DNA of 64,000 bases, taken from Thiospirochaeta perfilievii. GTDB taxonomy: Bacteria; Spirochaetota; Spirochaetia; DSM-2461. Positions 42,924-62,477 of the stretch are shown piece by piece. The first letter of the stretch is position 1. Each line of letters begins with the position of its first letter. Made by a program: the position numbers and the translations under genes. The notes below the pieces were generated by a model. The model was not told where the DNA came from, ran no database searches, and worked only from the letters and a program-made list of their open reading frames with translations. Where the stretch lies: assembly GCF_008329945.1 (NCBI RefSeq), contig NZ_CP035807.1, forward strand, positions 1,426,001 through 1,490,000. The letters run 5' to 3'.

Positions 42924-43682
42924 ATGACCATTGATACAGGGATATTTTCAACAGAGACAGAGATTGTAAACCACACCCAAGAGATAATTAATTTATCTGA
43001 AATAGAACATGAAACCCTCCTTGAAGAGTATAAACACCTGGCAAAAAGTTATGCAAAGATATTAAAACAGACTAAAAAATTAATTAATTTGGCTGACAAT
43101 ACTCAAAAAAGACTAAAAGAATCTAATAACTTGGTAGAGGATAAGATTCATCAACTATTAGTTGCAGAAAAGAATCTAAAAAAATTAGCTACAACCGACT
43201 CCCTAACTGGTCTTAAAAATAGGAGGGGTATTAGTAGGTGTTTAGAAAATTGTGTAAAAAGAAGTCAGAATGAAAATTTACCATTTACAATTTTCTTAAT
43301 GGATATAGACCACTTTAAAATTGTTAACGACAAATATGGCCATGCAACAGGAGATCGAGTTCTAAAAAGGTTATCGGCAATATTAAAATCAACTCTTAGA
43401 TCCCACGACTGTATTGCAAGATGGGGTGGGGAAGAGTTTTTAATTATCCTACCAGAGACAACCTTAGATAGTGGATACCTAGTTGCCGAGAAGATTAGAA
43501 AAAACATTGAAAAGATTGAGATTAACTATAATAATTATAAAATAAAAGTTACTGTCTCCCTTGGCGGTTGCTTATACAACAACAACTTATATATAGAACA
43601 GAGCATTCATAGTGCAGATGAAGCTCTATATGTAAGTAAATCTAATGGAAGAAATAGAGTGAGTTTATATGAAGATATCTGA
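42924..43682 (+). CDS. siaD: SiaD-like diguanylate cyclase
   Basis: A 252-residue cytoplasmic protein with an N-terminal coiled coil (LLEEYKHLAKSYAKILKQTKK, NTQKRLKESNNLVEDKIHQL) and a GGDEF domain from about residue 92 (TTDSLTGLKNRRG). The active site is GGEEF. An RxxD inhibitory site lies five residues before it (RSHD-CIARW-GGEEF), so both catalysis and product inhibition by c-di-GMP are expected. In Pseudomonas aeruginosa the coiled coil of SiaD is the docking region for SiaC. Here siaB overlaps its 3' end, and siaC and siaA follow on the opposite strand, which supports the assignment. No clear ribosome site is seen. Confidence 0.85.
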   Translation: MTIDTGIFSTETEIVNHTQEIINLSEIEHETLLEEYKHLAKSYAKILKQTKKLINLADNTQKRLKESNNLVEDKIHQLLVAEKNLKKLATTDSLTGLKNRRGISRCLENCVKRSQNENLPFTIFLMDIDHFKIVNDKYGHATGDRVLKRLSAILKSTLRSHDCIARWGGEEFLIILPETTLDSGYLVAEKIRKNIEKIEINYNNYKIKVTVSLGGCLYNNNLYIEQSIHSADEALYVSKSNGRNRVSLYEDI

Positions 43683-44235
43683 TATTTCCAAGTACTACAG
43701 AATTTTTGATGATGATGGAATAGTTCTAAGCTATCAAGGACCTTTTATACAAGAGATGATAGAGGAGATTAGTTCAGTTATGAATGAGAAGATTTCTAAC
43801 TATTCAGATCTTAAACTAAATGCTAAATTTCTTAGTCTTTTTATAGAACAAGCACAAAACATACTCCACTACTCTGCAGATAGAATAACAGGTGAGAGTG
43901 GAACCCAGTTAAGTCATGGCTTTATATTAACAGGGGTTAAAGATGGTACAATATTTATTATTAGTGGAAACCCAATAGACCCTAGCCATGAGAAAATATT
44001 AAAAAGTAAACTTGAATCTATAAATAAATACCCAAAAAGCGAACTAAAAAAACTATTTAAGGAACAGTTAAAAAGTGAAAATGATAACTTTTTAAGTAAG
44101 GGAGCAAGTCTAGGCTTAATAGAATTATGTAGAAAATCCGATAATATGGAGTATCACTTTGATAAGACCCCATCTGGAGAACTATTTTTCTCTATAAAAA
44201 CAGAGTATTATTACTCTGAAACAACAATAGAGTAA
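43669..44235 (+). CDS. siaB: SiaB-like protein kinase
   Basis: A 188-residue protein of the SiaB/DUF6272 type, an atypical histidine-kinase-like fold that phosphorylates SiaC on a threonine or serine. Visible features are LFIEQAQNILHYSADRI (the N-box-like helix), HGFILTGVKDGTIFIISGNPI and FLSKGASLGLIELCRKSD (G-box-like). It overlaps the diguanylate cyclase gene by 14 bases and is translationally coupled. Its 3' end overlaps the convergent siaC gene by 25 bases. The family assignment rests on pattern and on the complete set of partners next door. Confidence 0.82.
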   Translation: MKISDISKYYRIFDDDGIVLSYQGPFIQEMIEEISSVMNEKISNYSDLKLNAKFLSLFIEQAQNILHYSADRITGESGTQLSHGFILTGVKDGTIFIISGNPIDPSHEKILKSKLESINKYPKSELKKLFKEQLKSENDNFLSKGASLGLIELCRKSDNMEYHFDKTPSGELFFSIKTEYYYSETTIE

Positions 44236-44582
44236 GGTAGTACTAAATCTTCTAATAGCTCCTCCCCTGTATCCCTAGCCATTTCATTTTCCTTATCATA
44301 TAACCACTGTATTTTAATATCATGACCCTTTTTATAAGCTTCATCTAATAAATCAAAGATATAAAACATTGCTTTTGTACTACTTGTATTAAGGTATAAT
44401 AGTTTTACAATTAACTCCAGGGCACGGTTATCTTCTTGTAAATAAGCGTTAAACCATCTAATAATTGGTTCATAAAAAGCACTGGAATTCTCAGGATATG
44501 ACTGCCCTTCTATTATAAACTTTTTATTTTTATCATCCAATAAAACTCTTGGAGTAGATTTTCCCAATGGAATATCAATCAT
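44211..44582 (-). CDS. siaC: SiaC-like regulatory phosphoprotein
   Basis: A 123-residue protein of the SiaC (DUF1987) family. It has the family start TPRVLLDDKNKKFIIEGQSYPENSSAFYEPIIRWFNAYL and the phosphorylation loop KLLYLNTSSTKAMFYIFDLL, where the serines/threonines are the expected target of SiaB. In Pseudomonas, unphosphorylated SiaC binds and activates SiaD, while SiaA removes the phosphate. Here it is encoded just after siaA (8-base overlap) and runs head-on into siaB. Confidence 0.88.
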   Translation of the reverse strand: MIDIPLGKSTPRVLLDDKNKKFIIEGQSYPENSSAFYEPIIRWFNAYLQEDNRALELIVKLLYLNTSSTKAMFYIFDLLDEAYKKGHDIKIQWLYDKENEMARDTGEELLEDLVLPYSIVVSE

Positions 44583-46644
44583 TCTTATCGACCTCTGCCT
44601 TCTCTTTTATCTTAAATCCAATCAAGGTAATATCATCTCTTTGCTCAGCTAAACCACGATAATCATCAAAAAATGTATCTAAGTTAATTTTCTGCTTGTC
44701 CATATCCAGTTTATATCCTGATTTAATTAAGTTTAAGTATCTTGTCCAACCTAAACCAAAATCTTGATCGCCACCATTTTGATCTAAATATCCATCTGTA
44801 GTCATATAAAATGAAGTTGATGGATCAACATTAATCTCATGATTTGTATAATTATAATCAATTTTTGATCTTTTGTAACCTATCCCCTGTCGATCACCCT
44901 TATACTCAGTCAACTCTCCATTAGCATCTACTGTATGTAAACGTATCTTAGAGCCTGCAAATGTTAACTTACTACTATTAATATCATAATAACATAACCC
45001 AATATCTAAACCATCATCTGCAATATCAAAAGGGTTATCCTGACTTAAGATTCTTTTTAAAATTCTATTTAGTTCATACAATATTGTTGCGGGATCAGAG
45101 TTATTAATATGGCTAACAATTCTTTCTAATACATTATTAGCAGTTGTTGACAATATTGCACCTGGAACTCCATGACCAGTACAATCAATAACTGCAATTA
45201 AAAAACCTTTATCATGCTTATAAAACCAGTAGGAGTCCCCTCCTACAACATTTTTTGGTTTCCATATTGTATAAAAATCTGATAGATACTCAGCCATAGT
45301 GTATTTATTAGGTAACATAGAGTTTTGGATTTTTGACGCATACTCTATACTATCCATAACCATTCTGTTTTTCTCTTTAAGCTCTAGTGTTCTAACAAAA
45401 ACCCGATCTTCCAATGTTCGATTAAGATCTAGATTTTTTTCGTACTCAACCTCTAAATTCTCATGGGTATTCGCAAACCTTTTAGCTAGTACAATAGAGA
45501 ATACAGCAGCCATTAAGAAAAAGCCTTCTCCAATTAAAGGATCTTTATATATAATTGTAGAAAAACACAACATACTATATATAAACGTTAGTCCTAATAG
45601 AAAAATACTTAGAAATAGTAATTTAGAATACATAAGTCTTTTTCTTAAGGTTCCTATTGATATGGCAAATAGATAGATTACCACTAAAATATAACTTAAC
45701 TGGAACAACATATATAGAGATCTATTAAATATAAATAGTTGACCAGTAATAAAGAACTCAATTAAAACAAAAGCTGCTAAAAAAAGATAAAAAACAGTAA
45801 ATATTTTTCCTACTAATCTAATTTTCATATTATAAAAAGCGTGGAAGAAAAGTATAGGAAGCAGATACATAAGTATACCACCAATAAAAGTTAATACCCA
45901 ATATGCCCATGGATAGTTAAATATATAGAACCATAAGCCGTTAAACCCCATTATAAATAATGCAACAGAGAAACATAACCCTGCAAAAACCAGATTAAAG
46001 GTGTCTTGCCTTCTAAAAAGATAATGAAATATAAAAAATAGGGATAAAAATAGAGATATAAAGGAGATTCCTACATTCCTTATAATAAATGAGATAAAGA
46101 ACTTATAAACAAAGTTATAGGTTCCTAAATGGGGCATTCCACTAAAACCACCCCAACCACTAAAGGATTTCACCCTAACTGATATATCATTAACACCAGC
46201 TTTAATCAACTCTTTAGGAATATCTACCGAAACGGCTTTAGTACCAAACTTATTCTCCGATTCATATAAAAACTGCCCATTTAAATATACAGAATATCCT
46301 CCATAACTAAAGGGTAAAAAGAGACCAAGATGCTCCGATGCTACAGATGGATCAATATCCATATATAACTTAAACCAACCTGTCCCTGTGTAGTTTTTAG
46401 CTTCTGGTACTTGCAAGTACCACGCTCCAACTATATTACAATTATACCAATCATTAATATTATTAATTTTATCTTTATACATTAAATTGTCATCTGGAAT
46501 AAAAAGCCAGTTTCGGCTCAGATTTACTCCCTCTTCTTTGTTATTAAAAGATACTACATCAATATTATTTTTTTTAAATTCTTGTGATTGTAAATTAAAT
46601 GAAATGAATAACAAGATATAGATAAATGACAATTTAATTTTCAT
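44575..46644 (-). CDS. siaA: SiaA-like membrane PP2C (SpoIIE) phosphatase with 7TMR-DISM sensor
   Basis: A 689-residue protein. A signal peptide is followed by an extracellular jelly-roll like the sugar-binding fold of GH2 enzymes (about 25-165, GTGWFKLYMDIDPSV, YSVYLNGQFLYES). Seven membrane spans cover about 185-400 (7TMR-DISM). A coiled coil (VRTLELKEKNRMVMDSIEYASKIQ) and a SpoIIE-type phosphatase domain come next, with PKNVVGGDSYWF, AVIDCTGHGVPGAILS, TTDGYLDQNGG and RDDITLIGFK holding the metal-binding acidic residues. Its role should be dephosphorylation of SiaC to turn on the diguanylate cyclase. The input domain differs from Pseudomonas SiaA. The gene overlaps siaC by 8 bases and has an AAGGAAAG site. 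Confidence 0.87.
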   Translation of the reverse strand: MKIKLSFIYILLFISFNLQSQEFKKNNIDVVSFNNKEEGVNLSRNWLFIPDDNLMYKDKINNINDWYNCNIVGAWYLQVPEAKNYTGTGWFKLYMDIDPSVASEHLGLFLPFSYGGYSVYLNGQFLYESENKFGTKAVSVDIPKELIKAGVNDISVRVKSFSGWGGFSGMPHLGTYNFVYKFFISFIIRNVGISFISLFLSLFFIFHYLFRRQDTFNLVFAGLCFSVALFIMGFNGLWFYIFNYPWAYWVLTFIGGILMYLLPILFFHAFYNMKIRLVGKIFTVFYLFLAAFVLIEFFITGQLFIFNRSLYMLFQLSYILVVIYLFAISIGTLRKRLMYSKLLFLSIFLLGLTFIYSMLCFSTIIYKDPLIGEGFFLMAAVFSIVLAKRFANTHENLEVEYEKNLDLNRTLEDRVFVRTLELKEKNRMVMDSIEYASKIQNSMLPNKYTMAEYLSDFYTIWKPKNVVGGDSYWFYKHDKGFLIAVIDCTGHGVPGAILSTTANNVLERIVSHINNSDPATILYELNRILKRILSQDNPFDIADDGLDIGLCYYDINSSKLTFAGSKIRLHTVDANGELTEYKGDRQGIGYKRSKIDYNYTNHEINVDPSTSFYMTTDGYLDQNGGDQDFGLGWTRYLNLIKSGYKLDMDKQKINLDTFFDDYRGLAEQRDDITLIGFKIKEKAEVDKND

Positions 46645-46666: not shown

Positions 46667-46873
46667 TTAGTATAAGAGTCCTAAATTAGAGTTTTTAATT
46701 TCTTCTTTATTATCAACCATCTTCTTAACATCGTCCTCATGAACATCATACCCCTTACTACTTAACCAAGATGATATTGTTTTATGATCAGAACCTTCAA
46801 TATGAGTTTTTAACTCTTCTGCTAACGTACTCTCTTTTGCTGAGTCTACAACAAAATCAATAAAATTTTTCAT
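46667..46873 (-). CDS. Nif11-leader-like small peptide, possible RiPP precursor
   Basis: A 68-residue protein, MKNFIDFVVDSAKESTLAEE to NSNLGLLY. The first 50 residues resemble Nif11-type leader peptides (FIDFV...STLAEELKTHIEG...ISSWLSSKGYDVHEDDVKKM, compare a generic FLEKV..DPELQEKLK...LAKEAGYDFSAEEL). The last 15-18 residues would be the core; no Gly-Gly cleavage site is visible. It has an AGAGG ribosome site and a good promoter, is the first gene of the operon with siaA and siaC (22 bases before siaA), and diverges from three radical-SAM/methyltransferase genes. It could be their substrate, or a small partner of SiaA/SiaC. Confidence 0.6.
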   Translation of the reverse strand: MKNFIDFVVDSAKESTLAEELKTHIEGSDHKTISSWLSSKGYDVHEDDVKKMVDNKEEIKNSNLGLLY

Positions 46874-46907: not shown

Positions 46908-46936
46908 ATCTTATTATTAGTGGCTCTTGGTGTCAA
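46908..46936 (-). promoter_or_regulatory. Sigma-70 promoter of the small peptide-siaA-siaC operon
   Basis: On the minus strand: TTGACA (46936-46931), 17-base spacer, TAAGAT (46913-46908). It lies about 35 bases before the peptide start codon. Confidence 0.65.
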
Positions 46937-47080: not shown

Positions 47081-48094
47081 TTGTATACTAATATTTTATC
47101 TATGTTATCTTTAGAAGTTACAACAAGGTGTAATTTACGCTGTTTAAACTGCTTTGCCCATGAGGGAGGGGAGTTCTCTGATATAAGTTACAAATTAGCA
47201 GAAGATGCACTTAATGAGGGTAAAGAGCTGGGATATTCTAAACTGAGTATAACAGGAGGAGAACCTCTATTATGGCTTAGACTATTTGACCTGTTAGATT
47301 ATGCCTTTAAAATAGGTTATAAATATATTTTAGTAAATTCTAATGGCCATCTATTTACTCAGGATATATGTAAAAGACTAAAAAAATATGGGGACAAACT
47401 ACATATAAGCTGTACAATAAATGGGGATAAAAAGGAGCATGATAATACCCGTGGTTCTGGATCTTATAACAAAGTAATAAATGGAGTAAAAACAGGCCTT
47501 AAGTTTGGATTAAATATATATATCTATACCGTAATAACATCTAAAAACCTAGAAAGCCTCCCCTACTTCACCCAGAATATTTTTAGAGAGCTAAAGGGTA
47601 TTAAAACCCTACTATTTATTCAACTTAGGGGAGTAGATAATGACTACTACAAGGTCGATGGATTAAAAATAACAGAGACTAGGTTTATAGAATTTGTTAA
47701 TATGGTGGCATTTTTATCCCTTGCAGTATACAAGGTAGAGATTCTTGAGAACTCCCTTGCTACTGTTGTGGCTAAGAAGTTAAAACTTAAATGGTTTCCT
47801 AAATCTCCTGATATTTCCAGAGAAGGAAAAGTTGTTATTCTTCAAAATGGAAATATTACATTTAACCACTCATCCAACGTATACTTGGGGAAGTATAATA
47901 AAGGAAAACTAAAAGAGACCTTAAGTTCAAAAACTTATTTAGAAGGAACTAGGGAAGAAAGCATAAGCTGTAAGACATGTAAATATATAAAGATATGCAG
48001 GAATAGTGGGAAACTTAGACCATCTGATGATTACCACAATACTGGAGATACAAGAGAACTATACTGTAAAAAAGTATTGGATTTAATACCGTGA
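47081..48094 (+). CDS. Radical SAM protein, SPASM/twitch-type
   Basis: About 337 residues. The radical SAM cluster motif CNLRCLNC (C-x3-C-x2-C) near the N terminus is followed by SITGGEPLLW and HISCTINGDKKEHDNTRG. A C-terminal set of cysteines (SCKTCKYIKICRN, later ELYCKK) could hold an auxiliary iron-sulfur cluster. Such enzymes commonly modify peptides. The start is uncertain: TTG 47081, or ATG 47102 (MLSLEVTTRCNLRC), neither with a good ribosome site. It begins a three-gene overlapping operon and diverges from the Nif11-like peptide gene (about 207 bases between). Confidence 0.85.
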   Translation: MYTNILSMLSLEVTTRCNLRCLNCFAHEGGEFSDISYKLAEDALNEGKELGYSKLSITGGEPLLWLRLFDLLDYAFKIGYKYILVNSNGHLFTQDICKRLKKYGDKLHISCTINGDKKEHDNTRGSGSYNKVINGVKTGLKFGLNIYIYTVITSKNLESLPYFTQNIFRELKGIKTLLFIQLRGVDNDYYKVDGLKITETRFIEFVNMVAFLSLAVYKVEILENSLATVVAKKLKLKWFPKSPDISREGKVVILQNGNITFNHSSNVYLGKYNKGKLKETLSSKTYLEGTREESISCKTCKYIKICRNSGKLRPSDDYHNTGDTRELYCKKVLDLIP

Positions 48095-49881
48095 AGATAC
48101 TATTAATAGTCCCACCCTTTGGACCTATTGAGTTTCAATCCCTTGGGCTACACAATCTACAAGCCTTAGGTAGGTTAAATGGTTTTGAAGTTGATATACT
48201 TTATGCTAATATTCATTTTGCCTCCCAGATTGGTGAAAAGTATAACTCCCTGTGTAATATGAACTACTTTCTTCTAGGAGAGAGAATTTTTGCAAGATCT
48301 GCCTGGGGTTGTAGTGTAGATAGTCTATTAAACCAAGAGATATATAATTATACGACAGTTTACAATAGAGATGAAAACCCAGTTAGGTTTTTCCCTAAAA
48401 CAGATGAGGTTAAAATATCAAGATTAATAGAGTATGAAAAGATAGCTTATAATTGGATAGATAGTTTTGTAGAAAATTTCCTTGAGTCCCACTATGATAT
48501 AGTTGGTGTTACATCTAGCTTTGAACAGACAAATGCAGCTGTATCAATACTAAAAAAAGTAAAACAAAAACAGCCTAATGTTATAACTATTTTTGGAGGG
48601 TTTAATTGTGAAGGGGATGGGGCAGATGGAATAAAAAGCCTTGATCCCGGGAACAAATTTATAAACTATATTTTTAGTGGAGAGAGTGAACTAACATTTA
48701 TTAGTTTCCTAAATAAAATTAGAGTTGATGGGTATTACAGTAATAGAATTATTTATGGAAAACCCCTAGAAGACCTGGATCTTATACCCAATTTAGATTA
48801 TTCAGACTATTTTGATGCATTAGACAAATTCCTTCCAAATAAAAGTAGATCAAACATTAATTTAGTAATGGAAACAAGTAGAGGGTGTTGGTGGGGGGAG
48901 AAAAATCAGTGTAAATTCTGTGGAACATCTGAGAGAATTTGTTACAGAGTAAAGAGTGAAGAGCGAGTATTAAAAGAGTTAACATCTATGAAAAAGTGGG
49001 GTGTTAATTATATACACATGGCTGATTTAATTATGCCACAAAGATATAAAAATGGGCTTCTAGATAAAATAATTAATAGGAATGATGCCTGGAAAATATA
49101 TTACGAACAAAAAGTAAGCCTAAGTTATAATGATTTAAAACTTTTAAAAAAGGCAGGGATCACAGAGATTCAGCCTGGTATTGAGAGTTTATCCTCTGAA
49201 ATATTAAAAAAGATGTCTAAGGGTACAGATCTTAAACAGAACATAAAATTTTTAAGAGATGTTACTGATATCGATATAAACCTCTACTGGAACATTGTAT
49301 GGGGTATCCCAGGGGAGAAAATTACACATTATAAAGAGATTAATAGATTAATCCCTTTGATTTCCCATCTAATTCCACCAATTGGGATGTTCCATATGAC
49401 TCTATTAAAATTTAGTCCATATTTTAAAGATCCTAACCAATACGGTATTTATAATATTAGACCCTTAGATTCATACAATAAAGTCTTTCCTGAATGGGTA
49501 GACAGAAAAAAAATAGGGATAATTTTTAGCTGTGACTATGATTATGAAACAAAAGAGGATGATAATGAGATTAAAATATTATTAGAGAATATTAATAACT
49601 GGAATAATTGTTGGTTTCGCAGTTTTAATAGGCCAAGACTACATATATGTAGAAAGGGTGATGGTGAAACGATTTTATTAGATACAAGAGGAGTTGCAAA
49701 TTTAAATATTCAAACTCTCATAAGCCCAGAAAAGATTAAGCTTTTGATAAATAATGATAAATTTAATAACACAGAGTTACAGTTGTGGGCGTTAAAATAT
49801 AGCTATGCTATTTTAGATGGGGATAATTTTATACCCCTACCAACAATTGAGGATGAGTTAAGGATTAGATATGAAGATTGA
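48091..49881 (+). CDS. B12-binding radical SAM protein, RiPP maturation type
   Basis: A 596-residue protein. The N-terminal cobalamin-binding-like domain (ILLIVPPFGPIEFQSLGLHNL, later IFGGFNCEGDGADGIKSLDP) is followed by a radical SAM domain with the unusual C-x7-C-x2-C motif in SRGCWWGEKNQCKFCGTSER. That motif and the early segment FASQIGEKYNSL match the 'RiPP maturation radical SAM protein 1' group, related to the peptide C-methyltransferases PoyB/PoyC. WNIVWGIPGE and KFSPYFKDP also fit. It overlaps the preceding gene by 4 bases and the next by 11. It most likely methylates or otherwise alters carbon centres of a ribosomal peptide. Confidence 0.88.
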   Translation: MKILLIVPPFGPIEFQSLGLHNLQALGRLNGFEVDILYANIHFASQIGEKYNSLCNMNYFLLGERIFARSAWGCSVDSLLNQEIYNYTTVYNRDENPVRFFPKTDEVKISRLIEYEKIAYNWIDSFVENFLESHYDIVGVTSSFEQTNAAVSILKKVKQKQPNVITIFGGFNCEGDGADGIKSLDPGNKFINYIFSGESELTFISFLNKIRVDGYYSNRIIYGKPLEDLDLIPNLDYSDYFDALDKFLPNKSRSNINLVMETSRGCWWGEKNQCKFCGTSERICYRVKSEERVLKELTSMKKWGVNYIHMADLIMPQRYKNGLLDKIINRNDAWKIYYEQKVSLSYNDLKLLKKAGITEIQPGIESLSSEILKKMSKGTDLKQNIKFLRDVTDIDINLYWNIVWGIPGEKITHYKEINRLIPLISHLIPPIGMFHMTLLKFSPYFKDPNQYGIYNIRPLDSYNKVFPEWVDRKKIGIIFSCDYDYETKEDDNEIKILLENINNWNNCWFRSFNRPRLHICRKGDGETILLDTRGVANLNIQTLISPEKIKLLINNDKFNNTELQLWALKYSYAILDGDNFIPLPTIEDELRIRYED

Positions 49882-50527
49882 TGTTAATGATAAAATTATT
49901 TGGGATGAAATATATCAAAAAGAGAAATTCTCCCCAGGATGGGCTATACCAGGTTTGGATCACAATATTGTTAGAATAATTAAAAATTCTTATCCTATAA
50001 ACAGCAGAATAAAGGTTTTAGATATTGGTTGTGGGAATGGAAGAAATTCAGAAATTGTAGAGAGGTTAAATGAGTTACACATTACTTATACGGGTATTGA
50101 TTTCTCATTTGAAGCTATTAAATACTGTATTAAAACATATAATAGGGATAAAAAGTTCTTGCATTTAGATATAACCCAGGATGTTAATCATATTAGTGAT
50201 AAGTTTGATATAATTATAGACTCAGGATGTTTTCATAGTATCCCCCCTAATTTAAGAGAGAGTTATATTAATACAGTTTTAAAGTTAAGCAAAGAGGGAA
50301 CAAAATTAATAATTGCAGCATGGTGGAGACCTAAAGAGATAGAATTTTCCATTAAACCATCATACTTTCCATACCTTTATCTAGATGAGTGGGTATTTAA
50401 TAGGTCTGATATTAAAAAAATATTTAATCAAAACTTTGAATTAGAGAAGGAATATGTAGATAACAATATCTATAAGGACCTTAAAAGGGGATTTGCCTAC
50501 TTTACCCTATCGAGACTCCCCATATAA
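49871..50527 (+). CDS. Class I SAM-dependent methyltransferase
   Basis: A 218-residue protein with a Rossmann methyltransferase fold: motif I VLDIGCGNGRNSEIVERL, acidic strand end YTGIDFSFEAIKYC, FDIIIDSGCFHSIPP and LIIAAWWRPKE. It resembles the TehB/TPMT-like group. It overlaps the B12-type radical SAM gene by 11 bases and is the third gene of this operon, so an extra methylation (N-, O- or S-) of the same product is likely. Its 3' end overlaps the convergent SBP_bac_3 gene by 21 bases. The substrate is unknown. Confidence 0.85.
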   Translation: MKIDVNDKIIWDEIYQKEKFSPGWAIPGLDHNIVRIIKNSYPINSRIKVLDIGCGNGRNSEIVERLNELHITYTGIDFSFEAIKYCIKTYNRDKKFLHLDITQDVNHISDKFDIIIDSGCFHSIPPNLRESYINTVLKLSKEGTKLIIAAWWRPKEIEFSIKPSYFPYLYLDEWVFNRSDIKKIFNQNFELEKEYVDNNIYKDLKRGFAYFTLSRLPI

Positions 50528-53406: not shown

Positions 53407-54594
53407 TTATTGTAAGATATTTTTTATAAATTCATCCCATTTTGTATCCTTTGTAAAGTCTATATTTTCATCGTTATAATAATACAGCTCCCCCCAGTTA
53501 TTAGGTGCTGGGAAATATATCGCAAGACCTCCGCACTTTTTGTAAAACTGGTTACTCCAATTGTTAAAAACAATACTATCAATCTTATTTATTAAAGTAA
53601 TGGCCTCACTGCTTGAAGTAAACTGGCATGCAAAATCTCTTAGATCGATATTTGTATCATTGTTAAAATCAACAGTAAAACCTCTAGCATCTAGAATTTG
53701 AAAGGTATCTATATGTTGCAAATATGCAATAAAACTATCTAGCTTTGAGACAAGAGCCTCAAAATCCTTTGTATAAAATGCTGATAATGTATAGTTATAT
53801 GGAGAAGAGTTTTCTCTATAGGAATCTACAATTACATTGGCAAAGTTTAGGGGATCACTATTTAAGAGTATAGCCGAGGTAAAAATATCTCTATAATCCC
53901 ACCCATCTTCTGGTTCCTCATCCTCTGACCCTATAATAATTCCTGTTATATCTTTAAGTTGATATCCCACCTCTATCATCCCCATATAACAGGCATCAAA
54001 GCCGATTAGATCAAAAGACTCTCCTTTAAGTCCCTGGGATAACTCAGCCATCAGAAGGTTATCGAAGTTATCACTATAGTCCCAACATATACTTTTAAAA
54101 ATCTTCTCTTGATCCACACTTAAAGATCGCCAGCCACCTCCATGATTCCAAATTATAAGGGAGCTGTATTTAAAATCATAACTACTCTTTACAAATGTGA
54201 TAAAGGTTTTAATAGTATTAGGATCTCCCATATTAAGCTCTACATTTTGACCTTCCTTAAGCCCCATTCCATAGAGTCTCTTTGATACTATCCTATTATC
54301 TAATCCATTTTTGTCATAAGTAATTTCAAAAAGACGGGTATCTGTCCAATCTCCATTTGATTTATCGTAACCACCTATTCTATCTAGTAGAACAACTATC
54401 TTAAATCCACTATCTGTAAGGTCAATGGATTCTAGTTCGTTTATATCTTCTATTGCAGCTTTTTCTAAATCATTATCTGCATCCATATAGATAAGTACTA
54501 AATGCTTAGAGGTATCACTCTTTTTAGTCTCTATTGAATGATCTATTTGACACCCAAATCCTAGCAAGATCAAAAAATATATAACATATTTCAA
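53407..54594 (-). CDS. Clostripain family (C11) cysteine protease, lipoprotein
   Basis: A 395-residue lipoprotein (MKYVIYFLILLGFGC lipobox). It has the C11 peptidase core: LVLIYMDADNDLEKAAIEDINEL, the catalytic His in LIIWNHGGGW and the catalytic Cys in LIGFDACYMGMIEVGYQL. Family members cleave after Arg or Lys. The end GLAIYFPAPNNW...YYNDENIDFTKDTKWDEFI is typical. It would act on the cell surface or in the periplasm. The start is TTG 54594 with an AAAGG site. It follows the TPR-GGDEF gene by 69 bases on the same strand. Confidence 0.88.
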   Translation of the reverse strand: MKYVIYFLILLGFGCQIDHSIETKKSDTSKHLVLIYMDADNDLEKAAIEDINELESIDLTDSGFKIVVLLDRIGGYDKSNGDWTDTRLFEITYDKNGLDNRIVSKRLYGMGLKEGQNVELNMGDPNTIKTFITFVKSSYDFKYSSLIIWNHGGGWRSLSVDQEKIFKSICWDYSDNFDNLLMAELSQGLKGESFDLIGFDACYMGMIEVGYQLKDITGIIIGSEDEEPEDGWDYRDIFTSAILLNSDPLNFANVIVDSYRENSSPYNYTLSAFYTKDFEALVSKLDSFIAYLQHIDTFQILDARGFTVDFNNDTNIDLRDFACQFTSSSEAITLINKIDSIVFNNWSNQFYKKCGGLAIYFPAPNNWGELYYYNDENIDFTKDTKWDEFIKNILQ

Positions 54595-60410: not shown

Positions 60411-61433
60411 TTGGCCACTCAAAAAGATGTTGCAAAGTTGGCAAACGTATCTTTTATTACAGTTTCTAGAGTAATAAATAACATGGGAAATGTAAAAAAA
60501 GAGACGAGGCTACGAGTAGAAAAAGCAATTAAAGAGTTAAATTACTACCCTAATACCATTGCCCAGGGGCTTAATAGTAACAAAATAAAAACTTTAGCCA
60601 TCCAGACACCACTACCAGTTGAATCTTCAATTGAAGGGACATCTTATTATAGGCGAATATTAATTGGTATAGAAAAATACTGTATTCTCCACGGCTACGA
60701 CCTTCTTTTATCATCCCAGAGAGCTGGTAAAGGAGAGTTAGACTTTTTAAAGCCTTTTTACGAAAGAAAAGCTGATGGTATAGCAATTATTGCATCTCGA
60801 CCCAATACAAAACAGTTAGAGAGTATCTCAAAGGATAATATTCCCTGTGTAATTGTTGGGGATAGACATCCAAGTATTAAGCTAAACTACATTGATACCG
60901 AAAATTTCCAAGGTATGTGTAACGCAGCTGAATATCTTATATCTAGAGGTCATAGAAGAATTGGATATATAAAAGGAAATCAGGAGAATCAAAATGCAGT
61001 TGATAGATTTTCCGGGTTTTTAGAGGCTATGAGAGTTGAGAAGATAAAAATTGATCCCACCCTAATTTTTGATGGTGATTATACTAAAGAATCAGGGGGT
61101 GAGGCATTAAAGTACTTTATAAAATTAAAAGAGCCTCCAACAGCTGTTATCTCAAGTACGGATTTAATGGCTATAGGTTTTTATGAAGAGTGCGTAACTA
61201 TGGGAATAAATATTCCTGATGATATATCAATAATTGGTTTTGATGGTCATGAAATCTGCTCATATACAAATCCCCAACTTGCAACAATGTATCAACCCCT
61301 TGAGGATATGGGGATGGAAGCAGCAAAACTTTTAATTAATCAAATTGAAAAGAACTATAATGAACCACAACACCTAATTTTCCCGGTTACACTACATCCA
61401 GGTTTATCGGTAAAAGATCTAACTAGACATTAA
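60411..61433 (+). CDS. LacI family repressor (tandem copy 1)
   Basis: A 340-residue LacI/GalR regulator. The HTH (ATQKDVAKLANVSFITVSRV), hinge helix and sugar-binding core (YYRRILIGIEKYCILHGYDLLLSSQRAG, RGHRRIGYIKGN, DDISIIGFDGHEICSYTNPQLATMYQP) are all present. The start is TTG 60411 with AGGAG at 60398-60402. It probably binds the two TGTTTACG-type operators before the importer and releases them on sugar binding. It is followed 27 bases later by a paralogue. Confidence 0.92.
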   Translation: MATQKDVAKLANVSFITVSRVINNMGNVKKETRLRVEKAIKELNYYPNTIAQGLNSNKIKTLAIQTPLPVESSIEGTSYYRRILIGIEKYCILHGYDLLLSSQRAGKGELDFLKPFYERKADGIAIIASRPNTKQLESISKDNIPCVIVGDRHPSIKLNYIDTENFQGMCNAAEYLISRGHRRIGYIKGNQENQNAVDRFSGFLEAMRVEKIKIDPTLIFDGDYTKESGGEALKYFIKLKEPPTAVISSTDLMAIGFYEECVTMGINIPDDISIIGFDGHEICSYTNPQLATMYQPLEDMGMEAAKLLINQIEKNYNEPQHLIFPVTLHPGLSVKDLTRH

Positions 61434-61460: not shown

Positions 61461-62477
61461 ATGGCAACTCAAAAAGATGTAGCTAAATTGGCTAATGTAT
61501 CATTTATAACGGTATCTCGAGTAATTAATAATATGGGAAATGTAAAACCCGAGACTAAGAAAAAAGTTGAAGCAGCTATTAAGGAGTTAAATTACTACCC
61601 TAACAGTATAGCCCAGGGTTTAAACCGTAATAGGGTAATGACTATAGCTATTGAGGCCCCACTTCCATCAAGCGAAACAGTTGAAGCCAACTCATACTAT
61701 ACAAGGCTATTATCTGGTATTGAAAAACACTGTATAAAATTAGGTTATGATATTCTATTATCTTCCCAACGGGGTAAAATATCTGATTTTGACACCCTTA
61801 GTCCATACTATAGCAGAAAGGCTGATGGAATTATAATATTAGGATCAAAACCAACAGAGGAACAGTTAAAAAAAATAACTAAGGATAGTATCCCCTGTGT
61901 GATAATTGGGGATAGAGATCCAAGTTACAAGATAAACTATGTAGATACAGATAACTTTACAGGGATGTACAGTGCAACTAAACATTTAATTGAGAATGGT
62001 CATAAAAAAATTGCCTTTATAAAGGGTAATATTTTGACTCAAAATGTCACTGAAAGACTTAAGGGGTATAAGGCTGCAATGAGGAAGTTTAACTACCCAA
62101 TAAAGGATGAGTGGATATTTGAGGGAGACTATACAATAGCTTCAGGGAGAAGATGTTATAAATATTTGTCTACACTGGAAGATAAACCTACAGCATTAGT
62201 TAGCTCTACAGACATAATGGCTTTTGGAGTCTATGAAGAGTTACATGCAACAGGAGAGAGTGTTCCTGATAAGATGTCAATTATTGGTTTCGATGGACAC
62301 GAGCTATGTAAATATACAAAACCACCATTAACAACAATTAGACAGCCCCTTGAAGATATGGGGGAAGAGGCTGCTAAAATGCTTATAAACCAAATTGAAG
62401 ATAGTAACACAACTAATAAACACCTTATATTCCCAGTTGATTTACAATATGGCGGAAGTGTAAAAAATATTAGTTAA
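61461..62477 (+). CDS. LacI family repressor (tandem copy 2)
   Basis: A 338-residue paralogue of the preceding gene. The first 28 residues are identical, including the recognition helix, while the sugar-binding core has diverged (YYTRLLSGIEKHCIKLGYDILLSSQRGK, NGHKKIAFIKGN, DKMSIIGFDGHELCKYTKPPLTTIRQP). Both should therefore read the same operator with different effectors, or form heterodimers. No good ribosome site precedes the ATG, so translation may depend on the first gene. Its 3' end overlaps the convergent GH16 gene by 8 bases. Confidence 0.92.
   Translation: MATQKDVAKLANVSFITVSRVINNMGNVKPETKKKVEAAIKELNYYPNSIAQGLNRNRVMTIAIEAPLPSSETVEANSYYTRLLSGIEKHCIKLGYDILLSSQRGKISDFDTLSPYYSRKADGIIILGSKPTEEQLKKITKDSIPCVIIGDRDPSYKINYVDTDNFTGMYSATKHLIENGHKKIAFIKGNILTQNVTERLKGYKAAMRKFNYPIKDEWIFEGDYTIASGRRCYKYLSTLEDKPTALVSSTDIMAFGVYEELHATGESVPDKMSIIGFDGHELCKYTKPPLTTIRQPLEDMGEEAAKMLINQIEDSNTTNKHLIFPVDLQYGGSVKNIS

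Follow-up and report, generated by a model that had tools for sequence, protein, structure and literature searches.

Introduction

Cyclic di-GMP (c-di-GMP) is a messenger for settling down, and the Sia switch, which acts on a diguanylate cyclase, has been described in Pseudomonas through surfactant, carbon and temperature or membrane cues. This text concerns a Sia locus of Thiospirochaeta perfilievii, contained in a stretch of 64,000 nucleotides (contig NZ_CP035807.1, positions 1,426,001 to 1,490,000 of the forward strand) that was analysed as a whole and is called the window. Directly upstream of the receptor gene siaA, it carries a gene for the putative precursor of a ribosomally synthesized and post-translationally modified peptide (RiPP). 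We consider it moderately probable that a modified peptide pheromone is the input of the SiaA receptor, and that such a signal has two interchangeable outputs, one of them the Sia switch.

The window shares with SiaABCD of P. aeruginosa a PP2C phosphatase (SiaA), the SiaB kinase, a phosphoprotein with the motif LLYLNTSS (SiaC) and a GGDEF cyclase with a stalk motif of SiaC-binding type, in the window only a look-alike (SiaD) (PMC7647112, PMC8457831). In P. aeruginosa SiaC, phosphorylation of T68 was shown in a peptide with this same motif (PMC7647112). The Pseudomonas genes are ordered in a single operon, whereas those of the window are split and convergent. P. aeruginosa SiaA has two membrane spans and a HAMP domain, in contrast to the GH2-like ectodomain and probable 7TMR-DISM domain of the window protein. 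The P. aeruginosa SiaD stalk carries two SiaC-binding motifs (PMC8457831), that of the window one that resembles them. Finally, a RiPP precursor and maturase genes are attached at the window. The window system is a member of the Sia kind of switch, with a new input.

In ComQXPA, too, a small precursor whose last residue, or one close to it, is aromatic goes with a modifying enzyme and an adjoining membrane receptor. That system includes a geranylated pheromone of five residues, and a census found no ComQXPA outside Firmicutes (PMC4008528). The wider spirochaete system described below also includes, in its non-Sia members, a polyprenyl-synthase-like protein (PF00348 in four of eight) and a histidine-kinase receptor. 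It differs in having Tyr for Trp, a Nif11-like leader, radical S-adenosylmethionine (SAM) enzymes and a 7TMR-DISM receptor that carries an ectodomain. ComX (PF05952) had no match in Pfam scans of the precursors of the window and its family, and no ComQ-like isoprenyl transferase lies at the window locus. The output of the window is a PP2C phosphatase, with no receptor kinase beside the precursor, whereas relatives have hybrid histidine kinases. By analogy, the window system would work like ComQXPA without being a member of it.

Two groups of peptide-modifying systems and one receptor family are also related. RiPP clusters with Nif11 leaders and TIGR03975 enzymes share the Nif11-like leader, an above-cut-off B12-binding radical-SAM C-methyltransferase and an extra methyltransferase. 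In contrast, the core at the window is very short with a fixed C-terminal Tyr, the locus holds no exporter, and the precursor lies on the strand of the receptor, apart from that of the maturases. Mycofactocin (MftA/MftC) also pairs a short, Tyr-ending peptide with a radical-SAM enzyme of the SPASM type, and its final residues are an invariant Cys-Gly-Val-Tyr (PMC3023750). The window precursor differs in its leader, its variable residues ahead of the Tyr and its linkage to a receptor. No mycofactocin dehydrogenases were seen near the window locus, and the score for an MftC-type maturase is below the cut-off (TIGR03962, 53.7 bits against 265). 7TMR-DISM receptors, few of which have been functionally studied (PMC6107284), combine a seven-transmembrane domain with a jelly-roll-like domain outside the cytoplasm and with cytoplasmic outputs that can be exchanged. 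The peptide-linked sensors probably share this build, and differ as a distinct clade, paired with a RiPP-type precursor gene.

Precursor–receptor linkage in Spirochaetota

Profile and ectodomain searches were made in 393 Spirochaetota genomes; a contig scan with a single precursor reached close relatives only, and distant members needed the profile. The precursor was found in 18 of the genomes, mainly in families other than that of the window. Typically, in such distant loci, it lies directly upstream, and on the same strand, of a protein of 650–1135 residues whose N-terminal half is like that of the window SiaA. The one distant receptor scanned with Pfam, L058, has a hybrid histidine kinase as output, with HisKA, HATPase and receiver domains. 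A homologue of rSAM1, the first maturase gene of the window, lies within about 10 kb of the precursor in 22 loci, distant families included. Sixteen loci encode a protein of ~335 residues with the acidic motifs D-[DN]-H-x2-DG and DDxxD. Within this set the polyprenyl synthetase family PF00348 matches weakly in four of eight (best E 0.0012); as a single sequence, the protein has no Pfam match.

Accidental adjacency predicts that sensors of the same type occur without the precursor as well. The ectodomain search gave 24 matches at E ≤ 1e-28. One of them, in G107, is cut by a contig end, and of the 23 that can be judged, 22 have the precursor immediately upstream and on the strand of the receptor. 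Weaker ectodomain (7TMR-DISM) matches, at E of about 3e-24 to 1e-14, had a precursor in none of nine sampled loci; because precursor-linked sensors had gone into the profile, the sharpness of this boundary is partly by construction. An independent single-sequence search with the window SiaA gave the same division into linked and unlinked sensors. In the tree, all linked sensors fall into one clade (support 100/100) that contains both histidine-kinase and SiaA types, the latter as one sub-clade (100/98).

The window SiaA is laid out as a signal peptide, a GH2-N-like ectodomain, a probable 7TMR-DISM seven-transmembrane domain, a coiled coil and a PP2C/SpoIIE domain. A model from a four-sequence alignment (mean predicted local distance difference test score 76) shows the ectodomain as a beta-sandwich like the GH2 N-terminal domain, followed by a predicted helical bundle. 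The transmembrane profile PF07695 (cut-off 29) scores 26.3 bits in the window SiaA and 55 bits in its relative L058. This ectodomain is present in six of six precursor-linked SiaA proteins (E 1e-33 to 1e-54) and in none of 17 from loci whose sia genes run in one direction (best E 0.005). SiaA is therefore a chimera, as judged from its sequence, of the Sia phosphatase and the receptor of the peptide-linked clade. The sensor domain also occurs in spirochaete histidine kinases. The SiaA model NF038263 matches the phosphatase half only (C-terminal 270 residues; 242 bits against 700), the full-length equivalog cut-off being missed because the sensor half differs. A preliminary description of the window had classed SiaA as a PP2C protein. 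This stands for the phosphatase half; the N-terminal half is no Sia sensor, which had been overlooked.

The precursor and its maturation genes

Precursors of the window's family are 41–72% identical. Between the window and locus L050, substitutions at the three codon positions number 12, 10 and 28, and their concentration at the third shows coding constraint. The Nif11 family (PF07862) matches weakly in five of six family precursors (best E 0.0046), and by such profiles the precursor would be Nif11-like only, not a certified Nif11 member. Its predicted structure is a helical leader followed by six disordered final residues; a fold search with this model found nothing.

Among the 30 precursors that are intact and have a linked sensor or linked maturases, 29 end in Tyr and one in Trp, with a background of about 3% (2.9%) of open reading frames in precursor loci ending in Tyr; the sequences are related, and these are not independent trials. 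The residues ahead of the Tyr vary (LGLLY, VGYY, LGLYPY, VKSY, NLKDY, VQPLY and others). An invariant last residue in a variable tail is the pattern that would be expected of a modified, released core.

The maturase genes (47081–50527) run divergently from the precursor, on its far side from siaA. The same three genes accompany the precursor in G001, G004, G009 and L050, lying on the siaD side in G004 and G009; the G001 locus is divided between two contigs, both of which end at the start of siaA. These radical-SAM, B12-radical-SAM and methyltransferase genes belong with the precursor. The preliminary description had placed a peptide ahead of siaA. The gene is present, and what was missed is its nature as a RiPP precursor, together with its maturases. 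A C1A papain-type protease adjoins the cluster in G004, G009 and L050; as a general leader peptidase it was rejected, having no match in G000, G001 and G013.

Other arrangements of precursor genes were also seen. Two orphan Nif11-like precursors, L062:11668-11892 and L065:9850-10143, have no linked receptor, and their tails (FLFLTR, YLFLTH) lack the Tyr. In the region of L060, two precursor–receptor pairs and two B12-binding radical-SAM-like genes lie a few kilobases apart; the third, orphan precursor of that genome is the one at L065. At L068:7242-7837 and L069:9458-10307, two tandem precursors, both ending in Tyr, precede a single receptor, possibly as two signals for one receptor.

The Sia switch of the window

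SiaD, SiaB, SiaC and SiaA had all been reported in the preliminary description, and their presence is confirmed: all match known Sia proteins and keep their catalytic and phosphorylation residues. The coordinates of these reading frames and of the peptide in the window sequence also agree with those given before. SiaC matches PF09345 (E 4.9e-38), and its best structures are 6kko and 6k4f (6kko_C/6k4f, E 9e-26), to whose T68 the window T66 aligns; the conserved Thr of NTSS is retained. SiaB scores 143.6 bits with the SiaB-family kinase model NF038262 (cut-off 85), and under the cut-off of the narrower SiaB equivalog NF038264. It also matches DUF6272 (E 2e-31) and the solved chain 6kko_A (E 2.3e-15). 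In SiaD, a GGDEF domain (E 1.2e-46) contains an intact GGEEF active site (residue 168) and an intact I-site-like RxxD (RSHD, residue 159). The top NCBIfam model of this protein is SiaD NF038266 (190 bits, under the equivalog cut-off of 290), and 7e6g (SiaD) is among its solved-structure matches. The SiaD stalk has a single SiaC-binding-like motif, LINLADNTQ (residues 53–61), with Asp and Gln kept; the motif is conserved among relatives. As a query on its own the stalk gave no meaningful PDB match, and it was compared with the stalks of relatives instead. The SiaA phosphatase motifs GGDSYW, DCTGHG, TTDGYLD and QRDDIT are intact, and the metal-binding Asp residues of the active site are retained in comparison with the solved 6k4e. 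For SiaC, SiaB and the SiaA phosphatase, the close structural matches come from P. aeruginosa. Adjacent genes overlap within each pair, siaD and siaB by 14 bp, siaA and siaC by 8 bp. On this evidence the Sia genes very probably form a working switch at the locus.

At other sia loci of Spirochaetota, the SiaC-binding-like stalk is joined to something other than GGDEF: an adenylate/guanylate cyclase of class III, a histidine kinase with receiver, or a SpoIIE/PP2C domain. SiaC may drive several different enzymes in this phylum.

Table 1. Features of the Sia locus and its surroundings in the window, and stalk fusions at other loci.
Feature	Position	Strand	Remarks
siaD	42924-43682	+	GGEEF diguanylate cyclase with coiled-coil stalk
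siaB	43669-44235	+	SiaB-family protein kinase; N-box QNILHY, residues 63-68
Terminator-like hairpin	44201-44218	-	at siaC stop, within siaB 3' end; weak, consensus scan only
siaB/siaC tail-to-tail overlap	44211-44235		25 bp; 4-25 bp over five family loci
siaC	44211-44582	-	regulatory phosphoprotein; phospho-site T66 in LLYLNTSS
siaA	44575-46644	-	chimeric receptor-phosphatase
SiaA linker and PP2C phosphatase, residues 409-679	44608-45420	-	NF038263 E 1.4e-71; 6k4e E 4.8e-53
SiaA ectodomain, residues ~33-175	46120-46548	-	predicted jelly-roll like GH2 glycosidase N-terminal domain; marks peptide-linked clade
Putative Nif11-like RiPP precursor, 68 residues	46667-46873	-	22 bp upstream of siaA; preceded by AAGAGG, like a ribosome-binding site
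Proposed core NSNLGLLY, residues 61-68	46670-46693	-	ends in near-invariant C-terminal Tyr; predicted disordered
Promoter-like site TTGACA-17-TAAGAT	46908-46936	-	upstream of peptide-siaA-siaC; consensus scan only
rSAM1, radical-SAM enzyme with C-terminal Cys motif	47081-48094	+	kept beside peptide across Spirochaetota; possibly starts at ATG 47102
B12-binding radical-SAM RiPP C-methyltransferase	48091-49881	+	TIGR03975 452 bits, cut-off 282
SAM-dependent methyltransferase	49871-50527	+	last gene of maturase operon
Non-GGDEF stalk fusions	L016:9429-10325, L181:2518-3573, L178:6254-7720, L189:7935-9731, L017:9990-11663, L185:6849-7889

Proposed mechanism

The steps of peptide signalling may be envisaged as follows. 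(i) The radical-SAM enzymes would recognise the leader of the precursor. (ii) A short final stretch around the C-terminal Tyr would be modified, released and exported. (iii) The mature peptide, made by the cell or by its neighbours, would bind the SiaA ectodomain from the periplasm. (iv) Binding would change the PP2C activity of SiaA on SiaC phosphorylated at T66. (v) Unphosphorylated SiaC would activate SiaD, yielding c-di-GMP. (vi) SiaB would reset the switch at SiaC. What is said of the Sia proteins rests on P. aeruginosa biochemistry (PMC7647112, PMC8457831); that the peptide is modified, freed of its leader, exported and bound we infer.

Several observations weigh against a peptide as the signal. 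There is no exporter gene within the locus, and the C1A protease of G004, G009 and L050 is without match in the window's genome. The top NCBIfam match of the precursors, TIGR03798, reaches 15.2–17.8 bits against a curated cut-off of 32.3, and the precursor of G259 runs 16 residues beyond the Tyr, possibly through a frameshift. G078, a member of the clade, has the sensor without the precursor; because this copy nests within the linked clade, it looks like a secondary loss. The window SiaD has one SiaC-binding motif, and in it the equivalent of S82 is Ala instead of Ser. GH2-like jelly rolls are commonly sugar binders. Finally, the adjacency could reflect a receptor that controls synthesis of the peptide rather than one that senses it.

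Alternative explanations

The last two points fit a reading in which the peptide is a bacteriocin-like or other secreted product and the receptor and Sia sense something else, such as a glycan. The association would then be one of co-regulation, without a ligand–receptor pair, and receptor and switch would control peptide production or entry into biofilm. It was in clusters of the bacteriocin type that TIGR03975 and Nif11 leaders were described (Nif11: PMC3023750); the ectodomain looks like sugar-binding domains of GH2 enzymes, and sugar-uptake genes adjoin the window locus. We nevertheless find this unlikely: more than 20 loci with differing outputs have the receptor gene next to that of the precursor and on its strand, the C-terminal Tyr is near-invariant whereas bacteriocin cores are expected to change fast, and neither an immunity gene nor an exporter is apparent.

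It is quite improbable that the peptide gives rise to an intracellular redox cofactor built on the C-terminal Tyr, as in mycofactocin or pyrroloquinoline quinone, with the receptor merely adjusting supply. The variable residues ahead of the Tyr speak against this, as a cofactor core should be fixed, and linkage to the receptor is closer than to any oxidoreductase. Tyr-ending cores beside a lone SPASM-like radical-SAM enzyme do recall mycofactocin, yet the mycofactocin maturase scores are generic (about 54–58 bits, with the same cut-off of 265). The missing exporter would suit a cofactor.

That the small protein stays unprocessed and unmodified in the cytoplasm and acts there as the receptor's partner or inhibitor, with radical-SAM genes as chance neighbours, would accord with its weak Nif11 score and its mostly helical, folded prediction, and is very improbable given the recurrence of rSAM1 near the precursor in distant families and the conserved disordered tail with its C-terminal Tyr.

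Convergent gene order

The Sia set of the window is split, with precursor-siaA-siaC on the minus strand facing siaD-siaB on the plus strand. The preliminary description had remarked on a division into two operons that converge and overlap, in contrast to the single operon of Pseudomonas. The observation holds beyond the window, A-C against B-D being convergent in five of five family loci with both sides readable (the window, G001, G004, G009 and L050). Sia loci outside the family were collected by a SiaC search of the 393 genomes and of relatives, and come from scattered lineages. All of these with a readable order are co-directional, mostly A-B-C-D, with the exceptions L016 (B-C-D-A) and L190 (B-A-C-D); the convergent split was found in none. 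The split is therefore real and ancestral to this spirochaete family, and neither an assembly artefact nor chance. Transcription in two units would allow the side of peptide, receptor and target (siaA, siaC) to be set separately from that of kinase and cyclase (siaB, siaD).

The 3' overlap of siaB and siaC is as long as first described, 25 bp. Across the family its length drifts (window 25, L050 17, G009 10, G001 and G004 4 bp each), so that the conserved property is tail-to-tail compactness and not a defined antisense segment. The earlier proposal that mutually antisense siaB and siaC transcripts set the dosage of kinase and substrate draws on a layout that is real and conserved within the family. 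It has hardly any likelihood left, and was rejected because the family keeps no fixed length of overlap; the terminator-like hairpin at the siaC stop would curb read-through and leave a very short antisense stretch, with the siaAC transcript possibly reaching no more than a few tens of bases into siaB, and other families have the precursor–receptor linkage without any siaB/siaC overlap. The 25-bp overlap is incidental compaction.

Neighbouring genes

In the window, amtB has beside it a gene (53407–54594, minus strand) for a C11 peptidase of the clostripain type, whose N-terminus resembles that of a lipoprotein; the maturase genes lie some 3 kb from this peptidase gene. A similar pair of amtB and a clostripain-like reading frame lies near the cluster of L050, whose gene order and neighbours match the lineage of the window. 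L050 also encodes, beside its RiPP genes, a 7TMR-DISM-GGDEF fusion protein (L050:2462-4189), a possible second c-di-GMP output at the same locus. Further along the window, two tandem and closely similar LacI-type regulators (60411–61433 and 61461–62477, plus strand) are an apparent recent duplication.

Significance

No description of the precursor–receptor linkage was found in the open-access literature, which is no proof of absence; the pair appears to be undescribed in the literature searched. Whether Spirochaetota possess a peptide-pheromone system of their own, with a Nif11-like Tyr-core precursor, radical-SAM maturation, a 7TMR-DISM receptor and swappable outputs, as a separately evolved diderm counterpart of ComQXPA, we regard as evenly balanced. 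In such a system the dedicated radical-SAM enzyme would be partnered by a prenyl-synthase-like or a B12-radical-SAM protein. The window would represent the branch with a SiaABC(D) phosphatase output, and so a RiPP input to c-di-GMP.

The near one-to-one tie between receptor clade and precursor provides a concrete, testable ligand candidate for 7TMR-DISM receptors and for Sia. If the pheromone reading is true, peptide pheromones with radical-SAM chemistry would be added to diderm bacteria, and outputs would prove to have been swapped, a phosphatase switch taking the place of a histidine kinase while the peptide–receptor pair stayed constant.

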